This document shows, one piece after another, positions 29,658-46,413 of a DNA stretch of 64,000 nt (positions are counted from its first letter, which is position 1; the number at the start of each line of letters is the position of its first letter). The translations under genes were made by a program, and so were the position numbers. The notes below the pieces were generated by a model that was not told the origin of the DNA, did not search any database, and worked only from the letters and a program-made list of their open reading frames with translations. Source of the stretch: a virus; IMG/VR virus record IMGVR_UViG_3300023178_000017, positions 41,280 to 105,279 of that record; one strand, given 5' to 3'.

Positions 29658-29665
29658 TATTTATA
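29658..29665 (-). promoter_or_regulatory. Late promoter giving a leaderless gp25 mRNA
   Basis: Exact TATAAATA, then five bases (GTTAG) and the gp25 ATG at 29652. T4 late geometry places +1 on the A of the start codon. Confidence 0.6.
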
Positions 29666-35625: not shown

Positions 35626-35633
35626 TATAAATA
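35626..35633 (+). promoter_or_regulatory. Late promoter for the gp4 operon
   Basis: Plus-strand TATAAATA in the 35-bp gp48-gp4 gap. Transcription would begin near 35639, 18 nt before the gp4 ATG. It faces outward and overlaps the leader of gp48. Confidence 0.6.
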
Positions 35634-41190: not shown

Positions 41191-41352
41191 AAAACAAACT
41201 TTACTTTGATGCAGTATCATAAGTACAGTTTAACAGAACTTGAGAATATGATTCCATGGGAAAGGGAAATTTACCTAAATCTTCTGAAAGAACACATTGA
41301 AAAAGAAAACGAGAGAATGAGACAGGCGAATAGTAAACGTAAAAGGAATTAA
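41152..41352 (+). CDS. -1 frame extension of the gp26-type protein
   Basis: 66 codons open from the slip site to TAA at 41350-41352, reading LVALSHDNFISYYKTNFTLM, then Y-S-L-T-E-L-E-N-M-I-P-W-E-R-E-I-Y-L-N-L-L-K and a basic end. It has no good start of its own (first ATG at 41209, no clear ribosome site) and fills the whole gap up to the next gene, one base away. The amphipathic helical character resembles C-terminal halves of tail assembly chaperones made by frameshifting. A homopolymer sequencing error in a single long gene is the alternative. Confidence 0.7.
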   Translation, partial: LVALSHDNFISYYKTNFTLMQYHKYSLTELENMIPWEREIYLNLLKEHIEKENERMRQANSKRKRN

Positions 41353-43822: not shown

Positions 43823-43986
43823 TCTTTATATTTCTGTTTTCTAGGAATTACCTTAGTCTTATCTTTATGAACTTGGGTCTTGCCATGATCTGGCGTTACC
43901 TTACGAGTGAAGATATTATCCCACGCCTGAGCAAACTGATCGTTTGAAATGACCTGTGGTCTTCTTTTACTACCTTTTCCCGACAT
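43819..43986 (-). CDS. Small conserved marine-phage protein (MSGKGSKRRP)
   Basis: 55 aa from ATG 43986; an in-frame ATG five codons earlier is less likely because the family starts MSGKGSKRRP. It contains I-S-N-D-Q-F-A-Q-A-W-D-N-I-F and a Lys-rich tail. Short proteins with this start are common in T4-like cyanophages and pelagiphages; function unknown. Highly basic, so nucleic-acid binding is possible. It overlaps the GAPDH gene by 17 bases. Confidence 0.75.
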   Translation of the reverse strand: MSGKGSKRRPQVISNDQFAQAWDNIFTRKVTPDHGKTQVHKDKTKVIPRKQKYKD

Positions 43987-44980
43987 GTCGCACCAAATCA
44001 ATTAAACGATTGGCAAATGCCCACTCGTTATCGTACCATGCAACAAGTCTAAAGGTTCTTGAATCTAAGAACTGAGTTTGATTCCAATCAACGATACATG
44101 ATCTCGTATCATGGTTGTAGTCTGAACTAACTAGTGGTTCTTCTGATAATCCAAAGAACTCAGGACATTGCACTTCTCTTAATCTGAGATTATCTCTAAT
44201 CTCTGCCTTTGTTGTAGGTCGTTCTGTTCTAAATGTAAAGTCTAACATAGAAACGTTCTGTACAGGTACACGTGTTGCAAATCCTGTAAGTTTGCCTTCT
44301 AAATGTGGTAGTATCTTAGCAACTGTTTCAGCTGCACCTGTTTTTGTAGGTATGATATTGTTTGCACCTGATCTTGCTCGATACTTATCTTTATGGTGAG
44401 AGTCTACTATAACTTGGTCGTTGGTGTATGCATGAACTGTATTCATAAAACCATGTTCAAGTCCAAATGTCTCATCAATGATATCTGCTAACCATGATAT
44501 ACAGTTTGTAGTACATGATGCATTAGAGAAGACTCTATCGGTGTCTTCGATTGTTTTGTGATTGATACCATAGACAATGGTCTTGTCTACGTTAGAAGCA
44601 GGTTGTGCTATGATTGTTTGCCATGGCATATTTCGAAACCGATCTCCGTCTGTAAATGCACCTGTACATTCTATAAGTACATCACAATTCCATGGTACAA
44701 GACTAGGGTTTCTTTTAGAGTGATACTCAATGTTTAAATGATTTGAATTAGCAACAGGATAATTCTTATCTTGTATTCTAAAACCACCTTCAGGCAATGC
44801 AAAGACATCTTTGTTAAATCTACCGTGTGTAGAATCGTACTTAAGTAAATGTATATTGGAATGTATATCACCTAAATCATTTACTTGACAAACTTCTACG
44901 TCATAATCATTTCTCTCGTAGATCGCCCTTAGGACGTTTCTACCTATTCGACCGAATCCATTTATACCTACTCTAATCAT
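43970..44980 (-). CDS. gap: Glyceraldehyde-3-phosphate dehydrogenase (GAPDH-family)
   Basis: 336 aa, full length. NAD-binding G-I-N-G-F-G-R-I-G-R (residues 6-15), Asp35 of V-N-D-L favouring NAD, catalytic Cys156 in SNASCTTNC, His183 in T-V-H-A-Y-T-N-D-Q, IIPTKTGAAETV, R-V-P-V-Q-N-V-S, and W-Y-D-N-E-W. Every key residue of active GAPDH is present. Erythrose-4-phosphate dehydrogenase (Epd) is a close alternative that I cannot exclude. As a phage enzyme it would shift host glycolysis/gluconeogenesis or feed cofactor synthesis. Start ATG forms ATGA with the stop of the 28-aa ORF upstream. Confidence 0.92.
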   Translation of the reverse strand: MIRVGINGFGRIGRNVLRAIYERNDYDVEVCQVNDLGDIHSNIHLLKYDSTHGRFNKDVFALPEGGFRIQDKNYPVANSNHLNIEYHSKRNPSLVPWNCDVLIECTGAFTDGDRFRNMPWQTIIAQPASNVDKTIVYGINHKTIEDTDRVFSNASCTTNCISWLADIIDETFGLEHGFMNTVHAYTNDQVIVDSHHKDKYRARSGANNIIPTKTGAAETVAKILPHLEGKLTGFATRVPVQNVSMLDFTFRTERPTTKAEIRDNLRLREVQCPEFFGLSEEPLVSSDYNHDTRSCIVDWNQTQFLDSRTFRLVAWYDNEWAFANRLIDLVRHVGKR

Positions 44981-45063
44981 AATCTATTTGTCCAAATCAA
45001 CCACCAACGAAAGTATTTTCTTCCCTCACCATATGCAGCTGATTTAAGTTTATTGTAGATCAC
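44977..45063 (-). CDS. 28-residue micro-ORF between bS21 and GAPDH
   Basis: Starts with GTG that overlaps the bS21 stop (TAGTG) and stops with TGA that overlaps the gapA start (ATGA), so it fills the gap exactly. Product [20 protein letters not shown], then WLIWTNRL: basic and aromatic, amphipathic. GAGGGAAG near its end could serve as the gapA ribosome site. The fit at both ends is unlikely by chance. Function unknown. Confidence 0.6.
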   Translation of the reverse strand: MIYNKLKSAAYGEGRKYFRWWLIWTNRL

Positions 45064-45296
45064 TATCTACGTCTATAACCCTTTTGTTGAGACCTCTTAG
45101 CCTCTAACTTACGCTTTCTTTTGATAGCTTGATTCTTCTCGTTTCTCTTCACTGAAGGTTTGACATAATGTTCTCTGTCTCTCACTTCTTTGACGATGCC
45201 TTTCTTGTCACATAGTTTTTTAAATCTACGTAACATACGATCAAAAGGTTCAACGTTCCTAGTCTTAGGGTGTTGCCTTGGTTTTACACTTGTCAT
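45063..45296 (-). CDS. rpsU: Ribosomal protein bS21
   Basis: 77 aa. The bS21 core is clear: [29 protein letters not shown], then a Lys/Arg tail [10 protein letters not shown]. bS21 binds the 30S platform near the anti-Shine-Dalgarno and helps initiation; phage copies, known from HTVC008M, may bias host ribosomes. Preceded by an AT-rich stretch (ATATAATATAACT) rather than a clear ribosome site. Alone after a structured gap, so expressed separately or by processing. Confidence 0.92.
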
Positions 45297-45513
45297 AGTT
45301 ATATTATATTAAAAATTGTTAGTTACTGTCTAGTGACTTTTTAAAAAAAGGTGTAGTCGCCCCAAACTGTTACAGCAGCCCGCTCTACACGAGATATCCC
45401 GCTTTTTCACGATATCCTTACCCATACTGAGTTCCCCCATTTCCACGGTCTCAGTCAAGTAGTCGCTTTCATAGGACACATAATAAAAAACGACTACTCC
45501 CTATTCCAAGAAA
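45297..45513 (-). ncRNA. Structured 217-bp gap between gp32 and bS21, candidate RNA element
   Basis: No ORF is seen. Four inverted repeats follow one another: GTGTAG/CTACAC (45351-45356 with 45385-45390), GATATC/GATATC (45393-45398 with 45411-45416), ACTGAG/CTCAGT (45426-45431 with 45450-45455) and an 8-bp AGTAGTCG/CGACTACT (45458-45465 with 45491-45498). GTAGTCGC also occurs at 45353-45360, so the last arm has two possible partners. It is locally richer in C than its surroundings. It could be a small RNA, a bS21 leader switch, or a gp32 3' end; orientation by gene direction is minus. Confidence 0.45.
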
Positions 45514-46413
45514 TTAGCTATCAGCTAACTTCTTAAAGTAATCCATCGCATCATCATCTGAACTTTCTCCGACAGATGCTTCTGCTGATGAGATTACAGG
45601 CTCATTTGCAACCGCTTCAGTGTTGACATTAGACCAAGGCACTTCTTCTAGGTCTTCTGCAACTGATTCAGCAGTTGATGTTGAGACGTTACCTGAGAGA
45701 CCTAGAACTCTGTCTAGTTTCTCTTTCAATTCATCATAGGATTTGAATTGATCAGGTGATATAATCTCGTTCAAAGAATTCAGTGAAGAATATATAGTAT
45801 TCAACTGAGCTTCATCGTCAAACAGTGGCATTTGAGTATCGAACTCTGACTTGTCATAGTTCCAATAACCATCAACCTTTCTGATTTTGATTTTGAAGTT
45901 CGCACCTTCTTCTCTGAGATCAAAGGGGTTAATAGCACTCTCATCTTCAAAAGCAGGTGAGATTGCTTCTTTCAACATTTCGAAAATCTTCTTACCATAT
46001 CTGTATAAGAAAACTTTACCCTCGTTGTGAGGATTCTTAGGGTCTGAAACAACATAGATGTTAGACACATAATGAAGTCTACGCTTCTGTTTACGTGCAA
46101 TCTCTTTGTTGGCTTCGATGCCTGTATTCCACAACTGACTGTTGTAGTCTGACACAGGGTCTTTTTTACCTAGAGTTGTCAAAGACTTCTCTATGTACCA
46201 CCCACCAGGTCCTTGGAACCCATGGTCGAAGTAAGATGCCCATGGCATTTCTTCTCCTTCAGGTGTTGGTAGGAATCTGATGATTGCATATCCGTTACCA
46301 GATTTATCTAATTCTGGTTTCCAGTACTTATCATCATCGTAGGATTTTGTTTCACCTTGAGTTGGTGAGGCAGTTTCCATTGCTGCCCTTAGTTTATCTA
46401 ATGATGTCGACAT
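45514..46413 (-). CDS. 32: Single-stranded DNA-binding protein gp32
   Basis: 299 aa (T4 gp32 301). Contains the gp32 basic LAST-type N-terminus (TSLDKLRAAM), core G-N-G-Y-A-I-I-R-F-L-P-T-P, S-D-Y-N-S-Q-L-W-N-T-G, R-K-Q-K-R-R-L-H-Y-V-S-N-I-Y-V, and an acidic C-terminal tail (SSDDDAMDYFKKLADS) that would contact gp59 and other replication proteins. There is no Cys anywhere, so the T4 zinc site is absent. Upstream lie two 16-bp direct repeats. It coats ssDNA during replication, recombination and repair. Confidence 0.93.
   Translation of the reverse strand: MSTSLDKLRAAMETASPTQGETKSYDDDKYWKPELDKSGNGYAIIRFLPTPEGEEMPWASYFDHGFQGPGGWYIEKSLTTLGKKDPVSDYNSQLWNTGIEANKEIARKQKRRLHYVSNIYVVSDPKNPHNEGKVFLYRYGKKIFEMLKEAISPAFEDESAINPFDLREEGANFKIKIRKVDGYWNYDKSEFDTQMPLFDDEAQLNTIYSSLNSLNEIISPDQFKSYDELKEKLDRVLGLSGNVSTSTAESVAEDLEEVPWSNVNTEAVANEPVISSAEASVGESSDDDAMDYFKKLADS

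Follow-up and report, generated by a model that had tools for sequence, protein, structure and literature searches.

A structured RNA candidate directly downstream of gp32 in a clade of T4-like marine phages

The window analysed here is a stretch of 64,000 nucleotides (nt) covering positions 41,280 to 105,279 of the virus record IMGVR_UViG_3300023178_000017 in IMG/VR, which is 105,279 bases long. On its minus strand, the gene of the single-stranded DNA-binding protein gp32 is followed by that of the ribosomal protein bS21, with a gap of 217 bp between them (Table 1). In this gap, directly 3′ of gp32 and on the gp32 strand, lies a predicted RNA of about 160 nt that ends in a terminator-like U-run. 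Sequence comparison establishes it as structured, encoded on the minus strand, single-copy, strictly linked to gp32 and belonging to one phage clade. The initial annotation of this DNA had singled out the same non-coding gap, for which we measured the same length, and had seen in it four consecutive hairpins, taken as a candidate new structured RNA or bS21 leader. All four stems are found exactly at the positions given there in plus-strand letters, but the plus-strand orientation of the hairpins has to be given up, since the counts of G·U and A·C cells described below put the RNA on the minus strand.

Table 1. Positions of the RNA, its parts and the neighbouring genes in the window (position 1 is the first letter of the window).
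Feature	Position	Strand	Remarks
gp32, single-stranded DNA-binding protein	45514-46413	minus	Pfam gp32, E 1.6e-36
Structured RNA, match of covariance model R1	45341-45511, core ~45501-45343	minus	139.7 bits, E 3.9e-34; a match is expected, as the same sequence (L001) belongs to the model's own alignment
P1 hairpin	45458-45498 (arms 45491-45498 and 45458-45465)	minus	preceded by G-run 45499-45501
P2 hairpin	45426-45455	minus	ACUGAG/CUCAGU and CC/GG step; encloses CGUGGA and a G-run, both conserved
GGG-rich joiner between P2 and P3	45418-45425	minus	conserved; first base 45425 pairs with 45374
P3 hairpin	45392-45417	minus	GAUAUC/GAUAUC; conserved GCGG on the 3′ side of the loop
P4	45351-45390	minus	GUGUAG/CUACAC, then GC/GC step; encloses small hairpin P5 with GCUGUAA
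U-run 3′ of P4, terminator-like	45343-45349	minus	seven T
Stem GTGTAG / CTACAC	45351-45356 / 45385-45390		plus-strand letters
Stem GATATC / GATATC	45393-45398 / 45411-45416		plus-strand letters
Stem ACTGAG / CTCAGT	45426-45431 / 45450-45455		plus-strand letters
Stem AGTAGTCG / CGACTACT	45458-45465 / 45491-45498		plus-strand letters
Proposed alternative partner GTAGTCGC	45353-45360		plus-strand letters
bS21 promoter-like site, TAGACA, 18 nt, TATAAT	45303-45332	minus	11/12 matches; 3′ of the RNA, outside it
bS21 ribosomal protein	45063-45296	minus	Pfam Ribosomal_S21, E 1.7e-15; next gene in the window, not in all relatives
GAPDH (glyceraldehyde 3-phosphate dehydrogenase)	43970-44980	minus	both Pfam domains; adjoins replication genes

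The structure was judged mainly from relatives. Single-sequence folding was only mildly better than that of shuffled sequences (z -2.63 for the plus strand and -1.65 for the minus strand); folding energy being weak evidence, it is the relatives that point to structure beyond chance. They were collected by a scan for gp32 (best 80 of 600 confirmed stretches). By blastn, the gap of the window matched the region 3′ of gp32 in most of the loci L001 to L042, and 38 distinct gaps, once aligned, have one minus-strand layout in common, namely P1, P2, a GGG joiner, P3, P4 with P5, and a U-run. This layout is called type A. Alignment A1, made with MAFFT and unfitted to any structure, holds 36 of the 38 distinct gaps; L007, which is without P1, and L039, which has a long insert, were left out. 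Two-sided changes were found in 27 of the 36 pairs of the structure, and the covariation score was 0.451 against a mean of 0.175 in shuffled alignments, none of 500 shuffles being as high. Covariation and conserved stems, the two features by which the initial annotation had wanted its hairpins checked in relatives, are thus both present. When the partners were slid by one to three columns, the score dropped to 0.158 or less, although the structure was drawn by us from these same sequences, which favours it over the slid controls. Run unaided on A1, RNAalifold placed 25 pairs in P2, P3 and P4, of which 18 show two-sided changes, and missed P1. The variable arm of this hairpin is misaligned in A1, where only 51.4% of the P1 cells are paired. 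In the other helices of A1 the paired cells amount to 99.0% in P2 (5 of 8 pairs covarying), 86.5% in P3 (7 of 8), 95.8% and 98.6% in the two parts of P4, and 86.1% in P5. Outside P1, G·U cells number 91 and A·C cells 9, and this ratio indicates that the RNA is the minus strand.

A model-fitted alignment, A4, brings P1 into register. All 71 chosen sources matched the model; they are representatives of the 194 loci described below, and they include L039, while L007 is represented by L093, another copy of the same contig. In A4, 28 of the 36 pairs covary and 94.8% of the cells are paired, and P1 has covariation in 8 of 8 pairs with 93.6% of its cells paired. When the column pairs of A4 were ranked by a G-test with average product correction, places 1 to 17 were all taken by pairs of the structure. 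Among the 71 aligned type A matches, the last 12 nt hold between 3 and 8 T. A simple terminator scan of the window did not list P4 with its U-run, because the helix is interrupted.

Outside the drawn helices, the best pair with more than 90% pairing in A4 connects the first base of the joiner (45425) with position 45374 in the GCUGUAA sequence. All 71 sequences keep this pair, with A-U in 65, U-A in five and C-G in one; the model drew base 45374 as the last pair of P5, and the base may serve either. The changed rows are L032, L037, L217 and L220, which are all alike, together with L040 and L315. Since L032/L037, L040 and L315 stand in separate parts of the gp32 tree (L217 and L220 are not in the tree), we infer at least three compensatory events at this pair. 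Its conservation in every sequence suggests that the RNA has a compact tertiary fold. Many unpaired bases are also invariant in the type A alignment. A pseudoknot between AGC of the P3 loop and GCUG of P5 can be seen by eye in many rows, but its P3 side varies without compensation, and the pair 45425-45374 alone survived testing outside the drawn helices.

The loci were found with two exact DNA patterns, and the matches listed are a lower bound (at least 203 loci); their counts include repeat copies of the same contigs, the cut-out cores distinct by letters being 85. Among the 203 matched loci listed, 194, in viral contigs, are true and nine are chance. The nine (L202, L207, L209, L210, L213, L219, L231, L254 and L255) are without gp32; five of them gave partial R1 matches of 16 bits or less, and the other four had no R1 match at E ≤ 1. 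In 192 of the 194 true loci among the matches listed, gp32 lies directly upstream, and the two others are cut by contig ends. In every one of 10 records, R1 found a single copy. A match in a genome contig, L339 (147.6 bits, L339:5420-5604), is a real copy of the RNA. It adjoins a gp32 that falls among the type A rows of the tree, on a 121-kb contig of a metagenome-assembled genome (MAG) of Sphingobacteriales. This is probably a phage contig binned in the MAG, and the binning is a weak hint of the host. Another such match, L340 (11.8 bits, 16 positions), looks like chance.

A related RNA occupies the same slot in phages whose gp32 is about 56-62% identical. In this form, called type B, the element GGAAAG-stem-GCGGCAG-stem is shared with type A, the final helix has GCGGG...GGGGC, and there is an extra hairpin. 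Its counts (43, 26 and 24) refer to loci picked as carrying the variant RNA, and 18 of 33 pairs covary among 26 sequences. R1 matched type B loci at the right place with E values of 0.0018 (L045), 0.032 (L047) and 0.25 (L050 and L051), and further ones at 0.013 to 0.054 (three loci) and 0.82 (L305). A model designated R2 recognises L045 (5.9e-8) and L043 (7.9e-6), which are bridging loci. Homology of the type A and type B RNAs appears likely from these sequence matches. The gp32 tree, which has 117 rows, places all of the 43 type A rows on one side of a branch with support 100/99, and types A and B together with two rows having little downstream sequence form a group of 76 rows (98/91). Outside this group, no row of the tree is labelled as a carrier of the RNA, the labels having been assigned by regular expressions. 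A single gain of the RNA would be the simplest reading of this distribution. In another gp32 lineage (L053, L056, L058, L068, L072, L332 and L336), a short conserved motif, GUGCAGUAAGUC ... GUCGUAACACCACA, is found just 3′ of the gp32 stop codon. It lies within complementary arms and could be a further structured RNA occupying the slot downstream of gp32.

In all 43 loci counted as type B, the sequence TATAAATA, which we take to be a T4 late-promoter sequence, separates gp32 from the RNA and stands just ahead of the latter. T4-type late promoters are expected shortly before structural-type genes. In the window, copies of TATAAATA at 35626 (plus strand) and at 29665, 22713 and 9655 (minus strand) lie shortly upstream of the starts of structural-type genes.

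With regard to novelty, Rfam 15 gave no match in the window at gathering score. At E ≤ 10, the region 45200-45600 gave four matches, all far below their gathering scores, and at E ≤ 5 none was found at the RNA in 11 relatives. A blastn search of 50,697 phage records was negative for two type A queries; one type B query gave a single match, at E 0.7, that looks like chance. R1 had no match around gp32 in the four phage records L082 to L085. No description of the RNA was found in the parts of the literature covered, chiefly open-access papers, and Rfam was the collection compared. ARAGORN listed no tRNA or tmRNA gene in the window. Likenesses to RNase P, to group I introns and to CsrA sponges were considered and dropped, as far as the Rfam scans cover them. 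Its folded shape being kept in related ocean viruses, the RNA is real and, by these comparisons, apparently undescribed. With two-sided changes in 27 of 36 pairs, a long-range pair kept throughout and no Rfam match, the idea of a new structured RNA has held.

Two other readings of the gap can be set aside at this point. One is the RNA switch of the initial annotation, in which the arms of P1 and P4 would pair in a mutually exclusive way. The full pairing of 10 nt is reached solely by the window RNA (L001) and L012 among 71 sequences, and the mean run with the own partners is 5.20 against 5.39 with shuffled partners, 196 of 200 shuffles being at least as high. The alternative partner is therefore not conserved, and the switch is rejected. 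The other is that the gap holds a small protein gene instead of an RNA. An open reading frame (ORF) of 49 amino acids (aa) is indeed open in the window (45330-45479, minus strand), but stops are about equally frequent across the three frames (295, 278 and 294), in 71 relatives just 12 frames out of 213 stay open, and the loop lengths vary by non-multiples of three. A conserved coding ORF is thus refuted, and this explanation deserves next to no credence.

We read the element as a noncoding RNA, about 160 nt long and present in one copy, on the gp32 strand. It would either be freed from the gp32 transcript or be produced late, and would act via its fold; we put the probability of this reading at about 0.5. 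In type A, the RNA would be co-transcribed with gp32, and the 3′ end of that transcript would yield a discrete RNA that accumulates and ends in the terminator-like helix P4. In type B, it would be made from its own late promoter. In both, action would depend on the fold, binding to a protein of the phage or the host late in infection being the most likely mode; antisense pairing or a leader role for the next gene seems less likely than that. A wider proposal, which we put forward tentatively, is that the RNA represents an undescribed tertiary-folded class, gained once in a marine T4-like clade that is not known to have a cultured carrier, kept in every labelled member, and active late, either in trans on a phage or host protein or as a ligand-binding or catalytic RNA. 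Several observations weigh against our reading. R2 found none of ten type A sources, so the relationship between the two types may be more distant than our reading supposes. TATAAATA is absent near the RNA in type A, where 8 of 71 sequences have one about 280-290 nt upstream, and a separate transcript is therefore an assumption there. In many type B loci, TATAAATA is flanked by inverted-repeat arms and could be a loop of an RNA. Elsewhere in type B loci it is only mildly enriched (65 sites against about 40 expected, all sites counted), and 22 of the 65 lie near an ORF start against a baseline of 24%. The strict linkage to gp32 fits a cis-acting element as well. The arms around TATAAATA differ between groups (GTTAGG/CCTAAC and GTTATA/TATAAC), as seen in L043, L045, L304, L306 and L288, for example.

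Such a cis-acting element is the main rival, which we hold to be unlikely, if still a serious candidate. As a structured 3′ untranslated region of the gp32 mRNA, the RNA would end transcription and shield the message from 3′-5′ decay, or it would be bound by gp32 for self-regulation. This agrees with the constant position directly 3′ of gp32, with the helix and U-run at the end of the RNA, and with the ordinary hairpin-and-U-run terminators that occupy the same slot in many relatives outside the clade. In T4, moreover, translation of gp32 is under the control of gp32 itself, and RNase E cleaves close to the stop codon of gene 32, according to the parts of the T4 account covered here (PMC3014915). 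However, the constant presence of TATAAATA between gp32 and the RNA in type B suggests production of the RNA independently of gp32, a plain terminator would need neither the long-range pair nor the conserved unpaired bases, and the T4 gene 32 operator is a pseudoknot 5′ of the gene, so that this operator was rejected as a counterpart of an RNA lying 3′ of it. A self-cleaving RNA of a new ribozyme class, processing the gp32 transcript, would account for the compact fold with its many invariant unpaired bases, but no Rfam ribozyme family matches it, and we consider this very improbable.

Control of the genes that follow is best judged from their arrangement. Among the matches listed, 177 type A loci have both genes; bS21 is directly next to the RNA in 133 of them, and in 44 a gene of 233-298 aa stands between. 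The intervening gene of about 295 aa (L009, L016, L018, L019, L026, L041 and others) is, by eye, presumably a DNA methylase, with the motif TCPPYGD. By set criteria, a promoter-like site lies 5-12 nt before the bS21 start codon in just 13 of 184 loci. The one in the window ends 7 nt before the start codon and would make the message nearly leaderless. As most type A loci are without such a site, their bS21 is probably expressed either by transcription running past P4 or from a different promoter. On this basis a riboswitch or attenuator could be proposed, in which P4, at once a component of the fold and terminator-like, is stabilised or opened to control read-through from gp32 into bS21 or the inserted gene, and the frequent direct succession of bS21 with its rare promoters speaks for it. 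Nevertheless, the next gene varies within type A, the alternative pairing is not conserved, and the promoter-like site of bS21 in the window lies 3′ of the RNA. Among 24 type B loci, the next gene is convergent, and thus not on the same strand, in 21; two (L043 and L045) have a short same-strand ORF, and one (L301) ends too soon. We regard the attenuator as improbable. Because the RNA stays with gp32 where another gene intervenes, because the next gene in type B is mostly convergent and because bS21 in the window has a promoter-like site of its own, a bS21 leader fails as a general role, although the RNA may have a cis effect on bS21 read-through where bS21 directly follows it.

Elsewhere in the window, at 774-2549 on the minus strand, there is a repetitive fibre-like protein, the C-terminal part of which looks Hint- or intein-like by eye (CFVAGTMIWLGDG ... 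VLAHN).

Many contigs of ocean viruses carry this well-supported structured RNA, which blastn did not find in any of the cultured phages searched and which is without an Rfam match. Its role is open to experimental test by virtue of the constant gp32 neighbourhood, the long-range pair and the late-promoter sequence found in type B. Among known systems, the L17 downstream element (RF01708) is similar in being a structured RNA just 3′ of a gene, often without an annotated gene next, and its strand was likewise argued from G-U pairs and GNRA loops, as far as the source was covered (PMC2864571). It differs in following ribosomal protein L17 in Lactobacillales and Listeria, and it gave no sequence match in the Rfam scans. 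The wcaG, manA, PhotoRC-II, CFrI and glutamine-riboswitch RNAs come, in the portions of the sources consulted, from the same broad group of T4-like marine phages (PMC9602691, PMC2864571; for the glutamine riboswitch also PMC9004378). In contrast to the RNA here, these are elements of 5′ or untranslated regions of metabolic or photosynthesis genes, antisense to psbA, or associated with tmRNA. The wcaG, manA, PhotoRC-II and glutamine-riboswitch families had no match in the Rfam scans, CFrI not being checked separately. The autoregulatory pseudoknot of T4 gene 32 is also a structured RNA tied to gp32 (PMC3014915, in part), but it is small and lies upstream, whereas the present RNA lies downstream and has four main helices in about 160 nt. 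T4 RNAC and RNAD, compared by description, are likewise small phage RNAs of unknown role in the sections covered of the same paper (PMC3014915). According to those sections, no riboswitch or trans-acting small RNA has been functionally characterised in T4 (PMC3014915), and it is to this gap that a strong candidate RNA in a T4-like lineage speaks.
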